33,811 nt of DNA, from contig NZ_PRLH01000193.1 in assembly GCF_003013815.1 (NCBI RefSeq), forward strand, positions 1 through 33,811, written 5' to 3'. The notes beneath the pieces were generated by a model that saw only the letters and a program-made list of their open reading frames with translations, made no database searches and was not told where the DNA came from. This DNA is from Cyanothece sp. BG0011. Lineage in GTDB: Bacteria; Cyanobacteriota; Cyanobacteriia; Cyanobacteriales; Microcystaceae. Below, one piece after another: positions 3,183-26,820 of the stretch. How positions within the stretch are numbered: the stretch's first letter is position 1; each line of letters opens with the position of its first letter. The translations under genes were made by a program, and so were the position numbers.

Positions 3183-3572
3183 CTTGAATTTGTTAAAGAT
3201 AATTGGAAAATTACCCATGATCCCTTTAGATTACGTTTAGCAAGAGGTAAAAAGTTATTTATTGATTTAGGGGCAGAAACTTTAATCGCTGCTGAAAAAG
3301 AAACAGCAAAAATAGCTATAGAAATTAAAAGTTTTAGACGTTCTTCTGCCATGAAAGACTTAGAAGAAGCGTTAGGTCAATTTGTATTATATAACCATCT
3401 CTTACAAAGATATGATCCCAACAGAACACTATATTTAGCTGTAACAGAAGACGTAGGTAAAAGAGTTTTTGAAGAGGAAGCAGGTCAAGTTTTATTAGAA
3501 GATGGTATTATTCAATTATTTACCTTTGATCCTATAGCAGAAGAAATCATAAGATGGATAACTCAACCTTAA
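3183..3572 (+). pseudogene. xisH: XisH-family protein, 5'-truncated
   Basis: The reading frame from 3183 encodes the XisH hallmark blocks: WKITHDPFRLR, KLFIDLGAETLIAAEK, KIAIEIKSF and DLEEALGQFVLYN, ending EEIIRWITQP. XisH proteins accompany XisI in cyanobacteria and were first described as factors for excision of the fdxN element in Anabaena; they resemble a restriction-endonuclease-like fold. An in-frame TAG at 3180-3182 precedes the similarity, and no start codon occurs before ATG 3351, which lies after half the conserved region. The first ~20 residues are therefore missing. Just upstream (about 3122-3195) the minus strand reads QIQAIQARTDQLQHAVEYF then a stop, like the tail of another gene, so a deletion or insertion joint near 3190 probably removed the start. 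Confidence 0.7.
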
Positions 3573-16465: not shown

Positions 16466-16966
16466 TCAGTCCGACAAACGAGATAAACAGCGTTCAAAGG
16501 CAACTTTGTGCCTGTTTTGGGAGACTTCACGTAATTGAGCAAAGGCTGCCCTTAAGTCTCTTTCTTGGACAAATGTAAGGAAATTATCGTACATTTCCAC
16601 GTTGGCGATTTCTCCTTCTACCCCCATCTGACAAGCTATTTTGAGGGTATCGGGGGCCTCTATATTTCCAGCATAGCTATCTGTGGGAATCGGTAGGCCA
16701 TATTGATTAAATAACCTATTCCATAGTTGTACGTGGCGATTTTCCGATTGAACAATGTTAATGAAAGGACTTATTGGGCCAAACTTCTCAATGATGGCAT
16801 TATAGAAGGCACGGGCATGATATTCGTCATTGATAGCGTCAATCATGGCCTGTTGGGTTCTAGGATCTAACTTAGTCTTAAGGGTTGAAACGGTTGTGCC
16901 TAAACCAGTGTCTACGCCGGAAGAGTGGTTAAAACGTCTTTGTCTACGGTGTTGATGTCTCATCAT
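16466..16966 (-). CDS. Ferritin-like diiron protein (DUF2202-like)
   Basis: A ~166-residue four-helix-bundle protein with a basic N-terminus (MMRHQHRRQRRFNHSSG). Carboxylate/histidine pairs occur in order: DEYHARAFYNAI, VQSENRHVQLW, GVEGEIANVEMYDNF and VSQNRHKVAFERC. This spacing matches ferritin-like diiron proteins of the DUF2202 type. The role may be iron or peroxide handling. The frame opens at TTG 16984, overlapping the stop of the upstream small gene, but ATG 16966 is the likelier start. It lies on the opposite strand from psbA, and its promoter may be shared with the region upstream of psbA. Confidence 0.7.
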   Translation of the reverse strand: MMRHQHRRQRRFNHSSGVDTGLGTTVSTLKTKLDPRTQQAMIDAINDEYHARAFYNAIIEKFGPISPFINIVQSENRHVQLWNRLFNQYGLPIPTDSYAGNIEAPDTLKIACQMGVEGEIANVEMYDNFLTFVQERDLRAAFAQLREVSQNRHKVAFERCLSRLSD

Positions 16967-16980
16967 ACTTATTCTCACTT

Positions 16981-17190
16981 TCAATTTTGTTGATTTTTGT
17001 TGCTTGACGATGCGATCGCCTCTGTTGAGACGGCAGCGATCGCTCTAGCTTTATTGTTGGGGAAAATTCTACATCCCTCAATTTTAACTTTATAACTATT
17101 TAGTAAATTTGTCAAGTGTTCTTGCCTTGTAGCAGTGTTCAATTGGCTGTATCCATATTCTCGTAAAGTGGGGAGAATTGTTAGTTTCAT
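16981..17190 (-). CDS. Small hypothetical protein
   Basis: About 69 residues from ATG 17190 (MKLTILPTLREYGYSQLNTA); the same frame extends upstream to TTG 17262 without a better start. No strong ribosome site is visible before the ATG. The C-terminal half holds two HIP1 octamers in frame. It stops next to the ferritin-like gene, so the two may be co-transcribed leftward away from psbA. No family recognised; may be a small regulatory or leader protein, or not expressed. Confidence 0.4.
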   Translation of the reverse strand: MKLTILPTLREYGYSQLNTATRQEHLTNLLNSYKVKIEGCRIFPNNKARAIAAVSTEAIASSSNKNQQN

Positions 17191-17303
17191 CGTTAATCTA
17201 GTAATCTGAAAACTGCTCTTAAGTAGGCTGTTGTTTCGGTGAAAAGAGTCAACGGAGAACAATGTTGTTCTGTTGCCTGTAACAATTAGTCATAAATACT
17301 CAT

Positions 17304-17332
17304 TGTTAAATATATAACTAATTAGTTATATT
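17304..17332 (+). promoter_or_regulatory. Predicted psbA promoter with a 20-bp palindromic operator
   Basis: TTGTTA (17304-17309), 17 bases, then TATATT (17327-17332) forms a plausible -35/-10 pair. A perfect palindrome ATATAACTAATTAGTTATAT (17312-17331) fills the spacer and overlaps the -10 element, the typical place for a repressor or a MarR-like switch. A degenerate version of the same core (AACAATTAGTCATA) starts at 17281. Downstream, TAAAAGG and CCTTTTA (17352-17369) form a 7-bp hairpin in the presumed leader, before the GAGGA ribosome site at about 17385. Confidence 0.5.
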
Positions 17333-17398
17333 GTTTATTATCAATACAAGATAAAAGGGATTCCTTTTAATACCACTGTCTCGAAGAGGATTTAAATC

Positions 17399-18475
17399 AT
17401 GACTATTTCTGCAGTTGAGCGATCAACAGAGAATAATCTGTGGTCAAAATTTTGTAATTGGATTACTAGCACCGAAAATCGCCTATATATTGGCTGGTTT
17501 GGGGTTTTATTAATACCCACCGGGTTAGTAGCTGCTATTGTCTTTATCTTGGCCTTTATTGCTGCCCCTCCTGTGGATCTTGATGGCATCCGCGAACCCG
17601 TTTCCGGTTCGTTGCTCTATGGCAATAACATCATCAGTGCCACTGTGGTGCCTACCTCTGCGGCCGTTGGTTTGCATCTTTACCCTTTATGGGAAGCCGC
17701 CAGCTTAGACGAATGGCTGTACAATGGCGGCCCGTATCAAATGATTGTGTTGCACTTTTTAATTGGAATTTTTGCTTATATGGGGCGAGAATGGGAGCTA
17801 AGCTACCGTTTAGGGATGCGTCCTTGGATTCCTGTCGCGTTTTCTGCCCCTGTCGCAGCTGCAACTGCTGTTCTTTTAATTTATCCCATTGGACAAGGAA
17901 GCTTCTCCGACGGCTTAATGTTGGGTATTTCAGGAACATTCAATTTTATGATTGTCTTCCAAGCCGAGCATAATATTTTAATGCACCCATTCCATGAGTT
18001 AGGGGTTGCCGGTGTCTTCGGGGGTGCGTTGTTTGCTTCCATGCACGGTTCGTTAGTCACTTCAAGTTTAATTCGAGAAACCACCGAAGCGCAATCAACC
18101 AATCAAGGTTATAAATTCGGACAAGAAGAAGAAACTTATAATCTAGTGGCTGCTCATGGCTATTTTGGACGATTAATCTTCCAATATGCTTCTTTTAACA
18201 ATTCCCGTTCCTTACACTTCTTCTTAGCGGCCTGGCCCGTCATTGGAATTTGGTTTGCTGCGATCGGTATCAGCACCATGGCCTTTAACCTTAATGGCTT
18301 TAACTTTAACGGATCAGTTCTCGATTCTCAAGGACGAGTCATCAATACCTGGGCCGATGTCATTAACCGTGCCAACATCGGCATAGAAGTAATGCACGAA
18401 CGTAACGCCCATAACTTCCCCCTTGATCTGGCGTTAGGGGACTCTCAACCCATTGCTATGGCAGTGAATAGCTAA
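17399..18475 (+). CDS. psbA: Photosystem II D1 protein, D1' (microaerobic) form
   Basis: D1 binds P680, pheophytin, QB and most of the Mn4CaO5 ligands in photosystem II. The 358-residue protein keeps YZ (Y162 here, standard 161) and the ligands D171, E190, H191 (redox His), H333, E334, H338, D343 and A345, so it should support water oxidation; a 13-residue tail after A345 would be removed by CtpA. Relative to ordinary D1 it carries G80A, Q130E, C144P, Y147F, F158L, P173M and T286A (standard numbering). G80A, F158L and T286A define the D1' type induced under low oxygen, and C144P and P173M are known from the Thermosynechococcus PsbA2 version of D1'. It heads a rightward gene group with petC. 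Confidence 0.95.
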
Positions 18476-18490
18476 ATCTATCTAAAAATC

Positions 18491-18517
18491 GACCGATAGC
18501 TACTTTTCCTATCGGTC
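18491..18517 (+). terminator. Hairpin in the psbA-petC gap
   Basis: GACCGATAG (18491-18499) pairs perfectly with CTATCGGTC (18509-18517) around a nine-base loop. No T-run follows, so it may stabilise the psbA 3' end or attenuate read-through rather than fully stop transcription into petC 33 bases further on. Confidence 0.5.
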
Positions 18518-18549
18518 ACATTCCTTACCGTTACACTTCAAAAAACATC

Positions 18550-19083
18550 ATGGAAAATAACCTTTCTTTCGATCAAACTTCCTTATCAAGACGACAACTG
18601 TTAAACTTCTTAACTGGATCGACGGTTGCGGTGGTTGCCGGATCGGCCCTTTATCCTGCGGCCAAATTCTTCACCCCACCCAAAGAAACAGGGGAAGGAG
18701 GAGCAATATTGGCTAAAGATAAACTAGGAAATCCCATTCCTGCCTCCCAAATTCTGGAAAATCCCCCCGAAACCCGTGCCTTAGTGGCTGGTTTAGCTGG
18801 AGAACCCACTTATCTTGTCGTCACAGATGCAAATACCTTAGATGGACGGGGTATTGTGGATAATTGTACTCATTTAGGTTGTACCTTTCCTTGGAATGAG
18901 ACGGCCGAACAATTTCAATGTCCTTGTCATGGTTCCCGTTATGATGCTGAGGGTTCCGTGGTTCGTGGTCCGGCTAACCGTCCTTTAAAATTGGTTCATG
19001 TGGCAGTGATCGATAACGCTATTTGGCTTTCTCCTTGGACCGAAACTGATCCTCGTACGGGTGAACGCCCTTGGTGGGTTTAA
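18550..19083 (+). CDS. petC: Cytochrome b6f Rieske iron-sulfur protein, probable alternative form
   Basis: The Rieske subunit carries electrons from plastoquinol to cytochrome f in the thylakoid. The 177-residue protein has a twin-arginine N-terminus (LSRRQLLNFL), one membrane anchor (~20-40), and the cluster boxes CTHLGC (106-111) and CPCHGS (124-129), with H108 and H127 as cluster histidines. Many cyanobacteria have several petC genes; linkage to D1' suggests this is the PetC2-type alternative copy, as in Synechocystis 6803 where petC2 lies a few genes from psbA1 (from memory). The sequence alone cannot exclude that it is the main copy. Confidence 0.9.
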   Translation: MENNLSFDQTSLSRRQLLNFLTGSTVAVVAGSALYPAAKFFTPPKETGEGGAILAKDKLGNPIPASQILENPPETRALVAGLAGEPTYLVVTDANTLDGRGIVDNCTHLGCTFPWNETAEQFQCPCHGSRYDAEGSVVRGPANRPLKLVHVAVIDNAIWLSPWTETDPRTGERPWWV

Positions 19084-19129
19084 TTTATAGTTTTGGATAG
19101 GTGTATCAATATTGCGCTTCAGTGAGAGT

Positions 19130-19150
19130 GGGGAGGGTGGGGAGTGTGGG
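19130..19150 (+). other. G-quadruplex-capable run between petC and the rhodanese gene
   Basis: Four G tracts of at least three bases, with loops A, T and AGTGT, fit the G3+N1-7 pattern in an otherwise AT-rich region. On the transcript it lies about 70 bases before the rhodanese start. It may also be one of the G-rich dispersed repeats common in cyanobacterial intergenic DNA. Confidence 0.4.
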
Positions 19151-19221
19151 AGGAGAGGAAAGAATGTTTTTCTATCTTCTCAATACTACTTTTGTAAACT
19201 TTGAACAAATAGATAATCAAC

Positions 19222-19608
19222 ATGGCTGCAACAACTTCTTTAAAACCATCGGTTACGAATATTTCTCCTCAAGACTTTCATCAATTATCAAATCCTCCTT
19301 TATTGATTGATGTTCGTTCACAATTTGAATATGTTAGGGGTCATGCTCAAGGGGCGGTTAATCTTAGTTTACCTCGCATTTTAATGGCACAAAATGCTTA
19401 TTTACGTCAGTTGATTGTGCCGACATGGTTTCGAGATTTACCGAAAGAACAACCTATTGCTGTGATTTGTTTAACGGCTCATAGAAGTCCCATTGTCGCT
19501 AATTTTTTACTTAAAATGGGCTTTACTCAGGTCTTTAATATCACAGGAGGAATGAGTCAATGGTGGCAATTAAACTATTCTAATGTAACGGGAAATAAAC
19601 CAGAATAA
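19222..19608 (+). CDS. Rhodanese-like sulfurtransferase
   Basis: A 128-residue single rhodanese domain. The N-terminal substrate-pocket motif is LLIDVRSQFEYVRGHAQGAVNL, and the active-site loop is CLTAHR with the catalytic Cys83. The C-terminal motif is FNITGGMSQWW. Single-domain rhodaneses carry persulfide sulfur between donors and acceptors. It lies between petC and a haem protein gene, 20 bases before the latter, so the two are probably co-transcribed. With a sulfide:quinone oxidoreductase gene ~6 kb downstream, a role in sulfide or polysulfide handling under low oxygen is a reasonable inference, not shown by sequence. Confidence 0.85.
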   Translation: MAATTSLKPSVTNISPQDFHQLSNPPLLIDVRSQFEYVRGHAQGAVNLSLPRILMAQNAYLRQLIVPTWFRDLPKEQPIAVICLTAHRSPIVANFLLKMGFTQVFNITGGMSQWWQLNYSNVTGNKPE

Positions 19609-19628
19609 AGTTAGGAGAAAATAGAATT

Positions 19629-20228
19629 ATGTATCATCAGAATAGTTTCAAATTTTTGGGTTTGGTTGTAATTATTTTCCCTATAATACTGTTATTAATC
19701 ATAGGGAATCCTACTGTAGCCAATGCTCAAACTGATCCCAGTCAATTAACGAAAGCGGTTCAAGAAATTGAGTCACTTGATGGGATGCGATCGCAGTTAG
19801 CTTCAACCTTAAAAGATCAGCCAGAAACACCCAATTTAGATACCTTTAAACAAGTGTGTAAACCGGTGGGAATGCGGGCAAAACAACTGAGTAAAGAAAA
19901 CGGCTGGCAAGTGAGACAAATTGCTAATAAATATCGCAATCCTGCCCATTCTCCTAATAATTTAACCGAAAAAATGGCCTTAGCTAAATTTGAACAGAAT
20001 CCAGAGTTAATGGGGTTTTGGCAACGAGAAACTATGAAGGGAGAAAAAGGAACTGATTATTATCGACGGATTAATGTGGAAGCCAGTTGTTTAGCTTGTC
20101 ATGGGACAAAAAATTCTCGACCCAAATTTGTGCAAGAAAAATATCCTCAAGATTTGGCTTATGATTTTAAACCAGGAGATTTAAGGGGAATGTATGGGGT
20201 GTTTATACCTGATAAAAACCATATCTAA
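19629..20228 (+). CDS. Tll0287-like periplasmic/lumenal c-type haem protein (DUF3365)
   Basis: A 199-residue exported protein. A signal peptide (residues 1-33, ending TVANAQ) is followed by a PAS-like DUF3365 domain with one haem c site, CLACH (154-158). Cys77 in DTFKQVCKPVGM is the candidate sixth ligand. The family prototype Tll0287 of Thermosynechococcus has an unusual His/Cys haem ligation, a low redox potential and appears in a strain relying on psbA2, the D1' gene. The end GDLRGMYGVFIP matches the family. Close linkage to a D1' psbA here supports a working relation. It might act as a redox or gas sensor, or in assembly; this is inference. Confidence 0.85.
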   Translation: MYHQNSFKFLGLVVIIFPIILLLIIGNPTVANAQTDPSQLTKAVQEIESLDGMRSQLASTLKDQPETPNLDTFKQVCKPVGMRAKQLSKENGWQVRQIANKYRNPAHSPNNLTEKMALAKFEQNPELMGFWQRETMKGEKGTDYYRRINVEASCLACHGTKNSRPKFVQEKYPQDLAYDFKPGDLRGMYGVFIPDKNHI

Positions 20229-20373
20229 TCAGTTTTGATTATTAAAAAATATTAATAATCTTAACAATTTTACTGACATCAACCTTAATGTCTAATTGGT
20301 AACAAAAATTGAGTTAAACTAGAAAAGGGAGGTAAAGAGAAGTTTATAAAAAAATAAACAGGAGGATAAACTT

Positions 20374-20664
20374 ATGGCACTCAGCAATTTAATTCCTCAT
20401 ATTGACATCAAAGATACGATTGAAGACTTAGGAATTCCTGGAATTACAGCGATTGTATTACTTCCTATGTTAATTCCTGCTGCTGGTAAAGCGGCTAGAC
20501 CTTTAGCTAAAGCAACCATCAAAGGGAGTGTTGTTCTCTATGAAAAAGGCAAAGGTATGATTGCCCACGTGGGGGAAAGCGTTGAAGATTTGGTCGCTGA
20601 ATCCTTAGCCGAACTTTCTGAAGAAAAAGAACCCACTCCAGCGATCGCTGAAGGTAATAACTAA
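20374..20664 (+). CDS. Small DUF5132-like membrane-associated protein
   Basis: A 96-residue protein with a strong ribosome site (AGGAGG seven to eight bases before ATG). A hydrophobic, Ala/Gly/Pro-rich helix (GITAIVLLPMLIPAAGKAA) is followed by KATIKGSVVLYEKGKGMIAH and an acidic tail. The pattern resembles DUF5132 proteins, which are often encoded beside HMA2-domain P-type ATPases in cyanobacteria. Such an ATPase lies downstream, now separated by the iscB element. Function unknown. Confidence 0.65.
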   Translation: MALSNLIPHIDIKDTIEDLGIPGITAIVLLPMLIPAAGKAARPLAKATIKGSVVLYEKGKGMIAHVGESVEDLVAESLAELSEEKEPTPAIAEGNN

Positions 20665-20669
20665 TGATG

Positions 20670-20741
20670 ACAAGCCAGTGTAGCAGATGAAATGGACACA
20701 GTTCGATCAATTAGCATTAAAAAATGATCTCACTGGCTTGT
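20670..20741 (+). terminator. Long inverted repeat after the DUF5132 gene
   Basis: ACAAGCCAGTG (20670-20680) and CACTGGCTTGT (20731-20741) are perfect 11-bp inverted repeats around a 50-base loop. T-rich sequence follows. It may end the upstream operon or form the outer left end of the iscB element. Confidence 0.45.
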
Positions 20742-20752
20742 TGTTTCCCCTC

Positions 20753-20781
20753 GTTTTTATCCTTGCAAGGTGAGGTAAAAA
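20753..20781. repeat. Imperfect palindrome near the iscB left end
   Basis: GTTTTTA (20753-20759) pairs with TAAAAAC (20775-20781), with CCTTGCAAGG as an inner palindrome. Its position 30 bases before the candidate omegaRNA fits a subterminal structure of an IS200/IS605-related element. Confidence 0.4.
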
Positions 20782-20798
20782 CAACTCAGGTCTTTAGC

Positions 20799-21015
20799 GT
20801 CAACAACCCATCGCTGAAAGCGAGGGCTTGTAAGAGCCTATAGTTGACCAGTCTAAGTTCTAAGAGAACTACGTTTTTAAAGCCATCACACCTACAAATA
20901 CTTCGCTAGTTTGTAGCTCTGTGGTTAACAGTTAAACATCTGTAATTGGGTTAAAGAAGTGCTGTTAATTTGACAAACTTTAAAAACATTGACGAAGCGA
21001 CCTTTACCCTAGCAA
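20799..21015 (+). ncRNA. Candidate omegaRNA of the IscB system
   Basis: Non-coding, highly structured sequence directly upstream of iscB, where omegaRNAs are encoded. Stems seen by eye: TCGCT/AGCGA (20811-20823), GGCTT/GAGCC with a GTAA loop (about 20825-20838), AGTTCT/AGAACT (20856-20870) and CTACAAA/TTTGTAG (20892-20916). A long-range 10-bp stem GTTTTTAAAG (20873-20882) with CTTTAAAAAC (20978-20987) encloses the last hairpin. GTCAAC/GTTGAC (20799-20804, 20843-20848) can also pair. In IscB systems the guide is the 5' end of this RNA, so it should lie just upstream of the first scaffold hairpin, around 20790-20810; its exact limits are not visible. Confidence 0.6.
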
Positions 21016-21028
21016 TAGGAGATAACTC

Positions 21029-22309
21029 ATGCGAGTTTTTGTATTAGATTCCAACAAAAAACCATTAAATCCTTGTCACCCTGGTAAAGCAAGAAAATTG
21101 CTTAATCAAGGCAAAGCAAGTATGTTTAAACGATATCCTTTTACTATAATTCTGAAGGAAGAAAAACCAAATCATGTAAATAATAAATTTGAATTAAAAA
21201 TAGATCCAGGGAGTCGTACTACAGGCTTAGCAATCTTATCTGCCAATAATTTAATTTGGGCGGCTTTATTAAATCATCGTGGTTTACAAATTAAAGATTC
21301 TTTATTATCTAGAAAACAAATTAGACGTTCTAGAAGAAATCGTAAAACTCGTTATCGTCAACCTAGATTTTTAAACAGGAAAAAACCCAAAGGATGGTTA
21401 GCACCTAGCTTAATGTCCAGAGTTCACAATATTATTACTTGGGTAAAAAGATTAACTAAATTATGTCCTATAAATAAAATAGCCCAAGAATTAGTTAGAT
21501 TTGATACTCAAAAAATTAACAATCCTGAAATATCAGGTATAGAATATCAACAAGGAACTTTATTTAATTATGAAATAAGAGAATATTTACTTGAAAAATG
21601 GGGCCGTAGATGTGCTTATTGTGGTATTCAAAACGTACCATTAGAAATTGAACACATTATACCTAAATCAAAATCAGGAACTAACTCTGTTAATAACTTG
21701 ACATTAGCGTGTAGAAAATGTAATTTAGCAAAAGGTAATCAAGACATTAAAGATTTTCTTTCTAATAAACCAAGTATTTTAAACAGAATTTTAAAGCAAT
21801 GTAAACAAACATTAAAAGACGCTACTGCTGTTAATTCTACTCGATGGAAATTATTTAACAGTTTAAAAGAATTTAATTTAGAAATAGAAACAGGAACAGG
21901 AGGTATGACAAAATACAATAGAACAAAACAAGGATTAGAAAAAACTCACTGGTTAGACGCTACTTGTGTAGGAAAATCAACACCTGAGAAAATAAAAGTT
22001 GAAGTAATTAAACCTTTAATTATCACAGCTACAGGTAGAGGTTCACGTCAAATGGTTAAACCAGACAAATATGGTTTTCCTCGAACTTCTCCTAAATTAA
22101 GACAAAAACAGTTCTTTGGATTTCAAACAGGAGATATTGTCAAAGCTGTTGTAACTAAAGGGAAAAAAGTTGGTACTTATGTTGGTAGGGTAGCTGTTAG
22201 AAAAACAGGTAGTTTTAACATTAAAACTGCGTTCTCTACAGTACAAGGTATTAACTACAAATATTGTAAACCTATTCACAAAGCGGATGGGTATAGTTAT
22301 GCAACATAG
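21029..22309 (+). CDS. iscB: IscB RNA-guided endonuclease (RuvC + HNH)
   Basis: IscB proteins are the ancestors of Cas9 and cut DNA matched by an omegaRNA guide. The 426-residue protein holds the full set: an N-terminal PLMP-like region (MRVFVLDSNKKPLNPCHPGK), RuvC-I D59 in KIDPGSRTTG, and an arginine-rich bridge helix (~96-112). Next come RuvC-II E154 in AQELVRFD, an inserted HNH domain (residues ~185-245) with CAYCG, EIEHIIPKS (H209) and CRKCNLAKGN (zinc cysteines 195, 198, 228, 231), and RuvC-III D310 in THWLDA. No catalytic residue is missing and no frameshift is seen, so it may be active. AGGAG is about nine bases before the ATG. No tnpA accompanies it. The gene lacks HIP1 sites, unlike its neighbours, fitting an acquired element. 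Confidence 0.95.
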   Translation: MRVFVLDSNKKPLNPCHPGKARKLLNQGKASMFKRYPFTIILKEEKPNHVNNKFELKIDPGSRTTGLAILSANNLIWAALLNHRGLQIKDSLLSRKQIRRSRRNRKTRYRQPRFLNRKKPKGWLAPSLMSRVHNIITWVKRLTKLCPINKIAQELVRFDTQKINNPEISGIEYQQGTLFNYEIREYLLEKWGRRCAYCGIQNVPLEIEHIIPKSKSGTNSVNNLTLACRKCNLAKGNQDIKDFLSNKPSILNRILKQCKQTLKDATAVNSTRWKLFNSLKEFNLEIETGTGGMTKYNRTKQGLEKTHWLDATCVGKSTPEKIKVEVIKPLIITATGRGSRQMVKPDKYGFPRTSPKLRQKQFFGFQTGDIVKAVVTKGKKVGTYVGRVAVRKTGSFNIKTAFSTVQGINYKYCKPIHKADGYSYAT

Positions 22310-25300: not shown

Positions 25301-25397
25301 TGTTGCTGATAGTCTGGTGATTGGCAGCAGTGCTATTTTACCTTTAGTCATTCATGAAGGCACTAAATCAAGTAATCAGCTACTGAACCAAAGATAA
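22368..25397 (+). CDS. Cation-transporting P-type ATPase with N-terminal HMA2-like domain
   Basis: About 1009 residues from ATG 22368, which follows GGGGGGAGAG; the frame opens 27 codons earlier inside iscB but that is not a credible start. Residues ~10-90 (FVKILHATVKGRGRYHVQGL and onward) form an HMA-like domain without the CxxC metal site, then a cation-ATPase N-terminal region. Landmarks follow: LTGESLPIRK (actuator), VPEGLPTVATTTLALG (helix 4), the phosphorylation site DKTGTLT (D448) and TGDGINDTPALKVAEVGIAMG (hinge). The PEGLP motif places it with P2-type (Ca2+/monovalent-cation-like) pumps, not the CPx heavy-metal type, so the transported ion is uncertain. It overlaps the convergent SQR gene by 18 bases. 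Confidence 0.85.
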   Translation: MKQYNLIDQSHQLSFVKILHATVKGRGRYHVQGLHHSQELKRYLEFNLSIHKAIKSVRASSLTGNILLHFDRDQTGEAIGTLVDTLVQSYKRTPTQISSRSPQTLTPVTHQQTLVASGVSVPWHLQEIDSIISQLNTSKERGLSQIDAETSLREYGVNALTETPNRSGLDIFIDYFKSVPVALLSGAALLSVLTGGVADAVVIMGVVTINAILGYATESHSERIINSLKHCINPSAWVIREGKLQEIETHNLVLGDILLLQPGSYVPADARLIEVDRLSLDESALTGESLPIRKQETLITSPQETIPLAERKNMVYRGTFVMGGQGRGVVVATGDLTEMGKIQALVGQTPQPSTPMERQLEQAASQLVWLSSGVCGLVLAIGLLRGYGLLEMVKTSISLAVAAVPEGLPTVATTTLALGILNMRQQKVLIRRLEAIEALGSIQTLCLDKTGTLTTNRMSVLKLCWDGRDIKLADGHFWSGSQPVNPYECDELLKLIHISLLCNDSQIITHHDGTYVLEGSATENALIEMGISAGVGVEDVKQQYPRLLTYHRSTENNFMATVHRIHESAYLMAVKGNPDEVLERSSTQMVSGQWVRLTEADKQEIKGQNQRMSAQGLRVLGVAYRQGETREIESLPVSNLIWVGLVGMADPIRPGVKESIANFHQAGIKTVMITGDQSHTAYAIGEDLNLSQGQPLKILNSLELTEFSSQGLSDVCEGVHVFARISPANKLEIVKALQQRGLVVAMTGDGINDTPALKVAEVGIAMGHTGTDVAREVADVVLEDDNLETMIIAVSQGRTIYNNIRKSVHFLLSTNLSEIMVMLFATMGGLGQPLNAMQLLWLNLVTDIFPGLGLALEPPEPDVLNRPPRSPDEPIIQSSDFERIVLESTTLSVSALAAYGYGISRYGIGPQASTVAFMSLVTGQLLHALSCRSTRPLRDQQLPPNPYLNVALSGSLALQWVSLASPPLRNLLHVTPLNVADSLVIGSSAILPLVIHEGTKSSNQLLNQR

Positions 25398-26639
25398 GCC
25401 TAACCCTTGTAATGCTAAGCGTTCAAACCAAGGAACTGACCAACCATGACGCATTTTGAAGAGGAAAAATTGCTCAAAGGCTGTTTTACTCCAACTCACC
25501 CATTTTCCTTGTAAGGCGATCGCTTTTCTCCTTTGTCCTGTGATAGCATCGGGTAAAATAGGGGCAGCCAAAAAACAAACCCCTGTTTGTCCAAAATCAG
25601 CCAAACACATCGCCTCTAGGGTTGGACTCATCAAATGACTAGAGATTTCTCCTAATTCACAAGCAATATTGTGAGCCACTGCCATTCCCATTCCTTCGGT
25701 CATCTGTCCGGTTTTAGGAACCCCGATAGGAATGGGAGTCACTTCTGGGGGGTTAATTTGCACCACTACACCGATACCATAAAGGGAGGGATAGTCAGGA
25801 TGTTGTCCCGTGGGTAAAACAGGTAAAAACCCTTTTTCATCCGTTAATCCAGGGATTTGTCGTAAAAAGCTAGGGCCTCGAAAGGGAGGTAACAGCATGG
25901 CATATTTAAAAGGCAACGTCTGACTATTGGATAAATAAATGGTATCGGGGGAAATATGACAAATATCAGCATTTTCTAGGACATTAATGTTATGTGCCGC
26001 CATTAGTTCGGTCACTAATGCTTGAGAGTTAGCCATACTACCGATTCCTAAATGTCCTAGATAGGGTTCTGGGGTGACGAAAGTGATAGAAATGCGATCG
26101 CGTTGTTGTAATCGCCTGAGAGTTTGATCGGCTAACATCGCAAATTCATAAGCCGGACCAAAACAACTGGCCCCAGGAACTGCCCCGACCACTAACGGGC
26201 CCGGATCAGCTAAAAATTCAGACCATGCTTGACTGGCTTGCTTTGCATGATGAGGATTGCATATAGATTGAGTAGATCCGGTTTCTGGTCCGAGTCCCGA
26301 CACAGCATCTAAAGCCAGTTCTGCACCAGTTGCGACGATAACATAATCATAGGTTATAATCTCATCTTCTACGGTTATTTGTTGTCTTTTTGGGTCAAGT
26401 TTAGTAACGGTTCCTAATAACCAATGAATCCCCCGTTTTTTCACTAAGGGTTCTATTTCTAGCTGAATACGTTGCAAAGAAATTAAGTTTAATGCTACCC
26501 AAGGTAAAGAGGGAATAAAAGTAAATAAGGGTTGATTAGAAATGAGGGTAATTTGATGATGAGAGGGCAATAAACGTCGCAATTCATAGACCGTAGGTAA
26601 TCCGCCGATTCCTGCACCAATAACCACAATATGAGCCAA
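25380..26639 (-). CDS. sqr: Sulfide:quinone oxidoreductase
   Basis: SQR oxidises sulfide to zero-valent sulfur or polysulfide and passes electrons to the quinone pool at the membrane. The 419-residue FAD protein has the dinucleotide site VVIGAGIGGLPT at the N-terminus and the second motif YDYVIVATGAEL. The three redox cysteines of the Acidithiobacillus-type enzyme are all present: C127 (SICNPHHA), C159 (GASCFGPAYEF) and C345 (EAMCLADFG). PIPIGVPKTGQMTEGMGMAVAHN is the conserved quinone-side segment, and a hydrophobic, amphipathic C-terminus (FFLFKMRHGWSVPWFERL) would dock to the membrane. TTG 26639 is preferred because GGAGGAG lies six bases upstream. Confidence 0.8.
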   Translation of the reverse strand: MAHIVVIGAGIGGLPTVYELRRLLPSHHQITLISNQPLFTFIPSLPWVALNLISLQRIQLEIEPLVKKRGIHWLLGTVTKLDPKRQQITVEDEIITYDYVIVATGAELALDAVSGLGPETGSTQSICNPHHAKQASQAWSEFLADPGPLVVGAVPGASCFGPAYEFAMLADQTLRRLQQRDRISITFVTPEPYLGHLGIGSMANSQALVTELMAAHNINVLENADICHISPDTIYLSNSQTLPFKYAMLLPPFRGPSFLRQIPGLTDEKGFLPVLPTGQHPDYPSLYGIGVVVQINPPEVTPIPIGVPKTGQMTEGMGMAVAHNIACELGEISSHLMSPTLEAMCLADFGQTGVCFLAAPILPDAITGQRRKAIALQGKWVSWSKTAFEQFFLFKMRHGWSVPWFERLALQGLGLSLVQ

Positions 26640-26820
26640 AACTACTCCTCCCAATACCTTAGAGATGAAATGGGTTTAAAACCTCAAAAAGAAAAATGGA
26701 TAATTATTCATTAATAATTACCCATGATCAATTATTTAATTTTAACAAAAATGTTAAAAGAAATCCCTCTCCAAAAATACGATTAGGAATACTCATATTT
26801 TAGATGGGAATGAATGTAAT

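Follow-up and report, generated by a model that had tools for sequence, protein, structure and literature searches.

The closest systems described so far are the psbA1-petC-rhodanese clusters of Acaryochloris (AM1_0448-0451) and Synechocystis (slr1181, slr1184, slr1185), which are induced under microoxic conditions (PMC5295598). We studied a related run of genes in a 33,811-nucleotide stretch of DNA from Cyanothece sp. BG0011 (contig NZ_PRLH01000193.1, positions 1 to 33,811; hereafter the window), which belongs to a cyanobacterial genome of 5.6 Mb (G000:C182). As in the published clusters, a low-oxygen form of the photosystem II protein D1 (D1') is encoded there beside petC and a rhodanese gene. 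Unlike in the window, no homologue of the haem protein Tll0287 is named in the accessible part of that paper; the window adds one, together with a gene for sulfide:quinone reductase (SQR) 5 kb further on. Genes for SQR have also been placed near group 2/3 psbA in 15 genomes (PMC5061849), and petC2 adjoins type I sqr (PMC11304991). These systems resemble the window in that SQR lies near a non-standard D1 or petC2, and they differ from it in that neither the haem protein nor a shared operator is mentioned in the accessible parts of the two papers. Polysulfide raises psbA and petC in Synechococcus 7002, where the accessible text does not name the psbA copy (PMC12466478). In a partial literature search we found no account of a linkage of the haem gene to D1' or SQR, nor of the palindrome described below; an earlier notice is possible. 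The D1'-petC-rhodanese clusters are already published, and what is new is the linkage of the stand-alone Tll0287 gene and a candidate regulon element. Our results suggest that the run at 17399-20228 is probably among the outputs of a regulon for low oxygen and sulfide, through which photosynthetic electron transport is remodelled.

Tll0287 is said, going by the title of a 2013 paper by Boussac, to occur with the PsbA2-photosystem II of Thermosynechococcus. The haem protein at one of our loci (L014) is identical to the crystallised Tll0287 (PDB 5B82) across all 191 residues, so this genome is that of T. elongatus or of a very near relative. It shares with the window an orthologous haem protein and a D1' carrying the three marks given below (PsbA2, locus L072). 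The arrangement is different, however: the gene of the crystallised protein has SQR adjoining it on the same strand and is distant from psbA2, which adjoins a standard D1 elsewhere on the chromosome, whereas the haem gene of the window lies beside D1'.

The gene run and its proteins

A preliminary description of the window had noted five genes in the same direction with short gaps, and we can confirm this observation. The open reading frames (ORFs) are all on the + strand with gaps of 74, 138, 20 and 145 bp, and coordinates and Pfam matches agree with their naming as D1' psbA, petC, rhodanese, Tll0287-like and DUF5132 (Table 1). The first three genes are adjacent, the arrangement that characterises a low-oxygen psbA1-petC-rhodanese cluster, and the petC is one of three in its genome.

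Ala80, Leu158 and Ala286 are the marks of D1' that Sicora et al. reportedly gave in 2009. In our alignment the D1 of the window carries all three, compared to Gly, Phe and Thr in the three standard D1 proteins of its own genome, and all manganese ligands are kept (D170, E189, H190, H332, E333, H337, D342 and A344). When 76 D1 proteins were placed in a tree, the window D1 fell within a set of 17 rows, all of the low-oxygen type, with a support of 99/98; standard and rogue D1 each lay on one side of a branch and the low-oxygen D1 split into two groups. Because of the marks, the manganese ligands and the position in the tree we class the window D1, judged by its sequence, as D1' and not as a form dead for water oxidation. 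Its induction by low oxygen would follow by analogy with the other species on which papers have been published. A further observation concerns Pro162, the residue after TyrZ: in the D1' proteins beside Tll0287 it is Ser or Ala at the loci L017, L023, L025, L027, L028, L037, L045 and L046, and also at L111, L174, L175, L179-L181 and L183-L187.

The haem protein has 199 residues, with a Pfam match from 34 to 194 and no further domain, and keeps both the CXXCH motif (CLACH) and the invariant Cys77. By these features it is a stand-alone member of the Tll0287 (sCache_heme) family, for which a covalent haem with Cys/His ligation is predicted. The sCache_heme/DUF3365 family described in a preprint likewise has CXXCH and a conserved Cys and no signalling domain, and one stand-alone member showed stable Cys/His ligation and bound neither O2 nor NO strongly (PMC12889525). 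Redox roles are given for the stand-alone members, while a D1' or SQR context does not appear in the accessible part of that preprint. Sensing of a gas ligand, which the preliminary description had proposed for the haem protein, is disfavoured by this finding on a relative.

Three catalytic cysteines are typical of SQR of the Aquifex type. The window SQR matches the solved sulfide-quinone reductase 3hyv (4.6e-94), and in an alignment read by eye it has the three cysteines of the Aquifex-type enzyme.

Table 1. Coordinates of the genes and of the palindrome in the window, with the evidence for each assignment.
Feature	Position	Strand	Evidence
psbA, low-oxygen D1 form (D1')	17399..18475	+	Photo_RC above curated Pfam cut-off; NCBIfam psbA 721.5 bits (cut-off 596)
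petC, Rieske subunit of cytochrome b6f	18550..19083	+	TM_PetC and Rieske above Pfam cut-offs; NCBIfam cytochrome b6f PetC 292 bits (cut-off 250)
Single-domain rhodanese, Cys-X4-Arg loop (CLTAHR, read by eye)	19222..19608	+	Rhodanese above Pfam cut-off
Stand-alone Tll0287-like (sCache_heme) c-type haem protein	19629..20228	+	Tll0287-like (PF11845) above Pfam cut-off
DUF5132 protein, not a conserved partner	20374..20664	+	DUF5132 above Pfam cut-off
Sulfide:quinone reductase (SQR)	25380..26654	-	Three cysteines aligned with those of solved enzyme 3hyv
Ferritin-like DUF2202 protein, divergent from D1'	16466..16984	-	Pfam 21.5 bits, just below cut-off 22
Perfect 20-bp palindrome ATATAACTAATTAGTTATAT, candidate operator	17312..17331	.	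67 bp upstream of D1' start codon

Neighbourhoods of the haem and D1' genes

Matches to PF11845 were present in 98 of 386 cyanobacterial genomes. We analysed regions of up to 20 kb around 45 short copies and 15 longer copies, plus 80 loci from named genomes, the best of the 105 that had been confirmed there. The starting set comprised 120 loci (the window, L010-L048 and L110-L189; L049-L054 had been excluded beforehand, having no match). Six were dropped with no match or less than 45% identity to the window haem protein and nine were duplicates, which left 105 distinct orthologous loci. On average 16 kb of the 20 kb was available per locus. A gene was counted as a neighbour within 10 kb, at an identity of at least 40% for SQR and PetC, 28% for rhodanese and 35% for ArsR; the counts for rhodanese and ArsR are loose because of these low cut-offs.

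SQR was found near the stand-alone Tll0287 at 45 of the 105 loci, ArsR at 37, D1 at 29, petC at 28 and rhodanese at 27, and at least one of SQR, petC and D1 was present at 69. The 29 loci with D1 contain 31 D1 genes. We identified 21 of them as D1', 7 as carrying the marks with the manganese ligands lost and 2 as fragments, and a single one was standard, even though these genomes commonly contain standard copies. As a control we used the 15 longer Tll0287-like loci, classed as the membrane-sensor type by their ORF length (302-365 aa); D1, SQR and petC were near none of them. The commonest neighbour of the stand-alone gene was a secreted-looking DUF3122 protein (58/105, for example L036:11238-11747), for the role of which a limited search found nothing in print. 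We also observed low-oxygen pigment genes (HemN-, ho2- and chlAII-like) sharing a stretch with D1' or Tll0287 at L017, L025, L028, L037, L074 and L082, and likewise at L110, L114, L140, L147 and L186; of these types HemN alone was scanned by Pfam. In the window's genome one of the longer Tll0287-like genes (334-aa open frame) has a gene for D2 (psbD) at a distance of 2.6 kb (G000:C155, L055:7581-12193).

Across whole genomes SQR (E <= 1e-60) was present in 35 of 386. It occurred in 23 of the 33 genomes that carry a stand-alone Tll0287 orthologue compared to 12 of the 353 others (P 9e-21, uncorrected for kinship), and in 15 of those 23 the two genes are at most 10 kb apart (coordinates compared by eye).

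A profile search over the 386 genomes could not separate D1' from standard D1. The D1' sample is therefore the top of the D1-identity list and not a census; it consists of 17 loci, with L044, which had entered via its haem gene, left out. The neighbours at these loci were ArsR (9), SQR (6), a nitronate-monooxygenase-like (NMO-like) gene (6), petC (4) and rhodanese (2), and at least one of SQR, ArsR and petC occurred at 9 of the 17. Around 22 standard-D1 loci we found no Tll0287, SQR, petC or ArsR. The haem gene meets D1' in the window, at L044, L111 and L119, at three loci of family f9 and at Cyanobium/Synechococcus loci. It belongs to a wider module and comes together with D1' in certain lineages.

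Two further genes next to the run were considered as members of this module. DUF5132, counted in by the preliminary description, gave 20 matches in 12 of the 22 genomes searched, where the window's copy alone lies at the cluster, and was near Tll0287 at 1 of the 105 loci, the window itself; we rejected it as a fifth member. Homologues of the DUF2202 protein occur near SQR or Tll0287 in a small number of genomes (6 of 105 Tll0287 loci and 2 of 17 D1' loci), and its membership is doubtful.

A palindrome shared between promoters

The 18-base core of the palindrome in front of the D1' gene has no other match in the window at up to three mismatches (0.06 expected). The palindrome overlaps a sigma-70-like match at 17303-17332, a type of match that is not enriched over shuffles. 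Scanning 16900-21100, we obtained 9 sigma-70-like promoters compared to 10.5 in shuffles and 6 terminators compared to 3.6 (sd 2.1); as these counts are near the shuffle level, the scan is uninformative on transcript ends.

For the comparison between genomes we searched the 250 bp upstream of genes for the pattern ATAACT-N4-AGTTAT, allowing up to one mismatch. We dropped duplicate promoters and upstream regions shorter than 150 bp, and sites between divergent genes were counted for both genes. The core was found upstream of low-oxygen D1 in 7 of 37 cases, SQR in 10 of 51, the NMO-like gene in 6 of 15 and DUF302 in 5 of 17. Smaller numbers were observed for chlAII-like (2/5), ho2-like (2/11), petC (2/29), Tll0287 (2/110), rhodanese (1/19) and MBL (1/17) genes. 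No site preceded ArsR (51), DUF3122 (61), HemN (11), DUF2202 (10), TRX-like (10), rogue D1 (7), standard D1 (29) or the longer Tll0287-like genes (15), and for other ORFs the count was 1 of 1126. Thirty patterns with permuted arms gave on average 0.03 sites (max 1) for low-oxygen D1 and 0.13 (max 4) for SQR. Across 3.0 Mb of sequence 41 of 49 core sites, and all 10 sites with exact arms, were located at most 400 bp in front of a module gene, in regions that make up 6.0% of the sequence. The motif had been found in the original locus set and we therefore re-tested it on 14 fresh SQR loci (one with a truncated gene). Here the core occurred within 400 bp in 4 of 14 (permuted patterns: mean 0.03, max 1). 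The shared palindromic element may be a common switch of parts of the cluster and of sulfide-oxidising genes.

Two one-mismatch copies of the core are located on another contig of the same genome (C19). The first (3334-3349) stands ∼45 bp before a run of HdrC-HdrB-FAD-HdrC-HdrB-like genes, after which come an SQR-like gene and DUF3122. The second (21952-21967) precedes a YgaP-like membrane gene, a second petC and a rogue D1. Together with the petC of the window, this makes two petC genes, out of three in the genome, that have a non-standard D1 beside them. The stretch with the Hdr-like run, the SQR-like gene and DUF3122 (G000:C19:3393-10312, L208), in which the NCBIfam matches are below their cut-offs, we take to resemble a cyanobacterial operon for sulfur oxidation of the sHdr type. 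The rogue D1 gene is broken into two parts, which are separated by transposase-like ORFs (G000:C19:18817-20944; L208, L209), and the petC preceding it is whole.

There are two candidates for the protein that reads the palindrome, and for both the binding is putative. One is ChlR, an oxygen-labile activator, whose D35H variant was shown by gel shift to bind the psbA1 promoter of Synechocystis (PMC4500134). If ChlR were the reader, the run could reflect a pure low-oxygen response, with the sulfide genes nearby since sulfidic habitats are also anoxic. We kept this as a rival as the palindrome core also precedes chlAII- or ho2-like genes in L074, L110 and L114 (gene names by eye), and we regard it as rather unlikely. 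The published ChlR motif TTMCC-N3/4-GGWAA (PMC13421787, PMC5295598) does not match the palindrome, and it was found in none of 37 low-oxygen D1, 5 chlAII-like and 11 ho2-like promoters. Searches of the window's genome with MarR and MarR_2 returned no protein that we judged by eye to be ChlR, and sites of the palindrome precede SQR, a sulfide gene.

The other candidate is an ArsR-family regulator similar to SqrR/BigR. Genes of this family are frequent neighbours, as counted above. Of 22 aligned proteins, 20 carry a Cys within the first helix segment and 21 carry one within the last (by eye); the first Cys does not occupy identical columns. There is no ArsR gene inside the window, and the match to the BigR model is below its cut-off. 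Elsewhere in the same genome one such ArsR gene and a rhodanese-TauE pair point away from each other, and the interval that separates them contains a copy of the palindrome with two mismatches; such copies occur at the chance rate.

A proposed regulon and what it would mean

We infer that the genes of the run are transcribed together and that a protein binds the palindrome. Low oxygen, probably together with sulfide or persulfide, would change the state of this regulator, and D1', a second Rieske protein, the rhodanese and the Tll0287-like haem protein would then be produced together. Photosystem II would be rebuilt with D1' in place of standard D1 and with its manganese ligands retained, and the spare Rieske protein would retune cytochrome b6f. 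SQR would pass electrons from sulfide to the quinone pool, and the sulfane sulfur formed would be handled by the rhodanese. The haem protein on the lumen side would serve the altered chain as redox partner or redox protector, and would not be a gas sensor. A low-oxygen module remodelling photosystem II and b6f had been suggested in the preliminary description; published orthologous clusters that are induced at low oxygen speak for it (PMC5295598), whereas its inclusion of DUF5132 does not hold. On the whole that earlier interpretation is partly supported and has been widened. Neither SQR nor the palindrome had been noticed in it, nor the precedent in the literature.

Several results weigh against a common regulon. 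The enrichment of neighbours that the preliminary description expected is visible from the side of the haem gene, where non-standard D1, petC and rhodanese occur and the controls show none, and it fails from the side of D1': Tll0287 was within 10 kb of none of the 17 D1' loci that had been selected solely for their D1 identity. The link between D1' and Tll0287 is therefore limited to some lineages. The four D1' loci with petC, which have SQR as well, come from one genus, and the linkage counts are uncorrected for kinship. At 36 of the 105 Tll0287 loci there is no SQR, petC or D1 in the available stretch. The majority of module promoters have no recognisable palindrome site, and in the window's genome we counted 16 copies at up to two mismatches compared to 15 for a reversed control pattern. 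The case for the palindrome therefore rests on its position across genomes.

The surroundings of the run also need to be considered. To the left there are two genes named by eye, one of the Crp family that resembles ntcA and one for an enoyl reductase, with the DUF2202 gene on the opposite strand. To the right follow a HEARO RNA (20799-21007, 158 bits) and an RRXRR-HNH ORF, then a P-type ATPase and finally the SQR gene on the - strand. The RNA and the ORF, which occupy 20799-22309 between DUF5132 and the P-type ATPase, form an IscB-type element. Such an element next door, a chance neighbour such as DUF5132, the gene order and strand that differ between loci and the lack of Tll0287 at the 17 D1' loci would all be expected if adaptive islands of cyanobacteria simply gathered accessory genes with no joint task. 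We consider hitch-hiking of this kind improbable, since a single D1 of the 31 near Tll0287 is standard despite the many standard copies in these genomes, and the palindrome is common to genes at separate places, including the two on contig C19.

Extending the proposed regulon beyond the run, we tentatively envisage one oxygen- and sulfide-gated cyanobacterial regulon with the operator ATAACT-N4-AGTTAT. It would swap the photosystem II core (for D1' or for a D1 incapable of water oxidation), the Rieske protein and the low-oxygen pigment enzymes, and would turn on SQR. Tll0287 would be a lumenal redox partner that links sulfur oxidation with the altered photosystem II by carrying or buffering electrons. 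This wider scheme is possible, and we put it forward with less confidence than the role proposed for the run itself.

D1' is a variant of photosystem II and Tll0287 a haem protein. Their linkage to SQR, together with a shared promoter element, provides a testable setting for the task of each, namely low-oxygen photosynthesis with sulfide. If true, a single operator would be a genetic handle on the switch between oxygenic and sulfide-fed photosynthesis in cyanobacteria, a switch that is relevant to microbial mats and to the history of oxygen on Earth.

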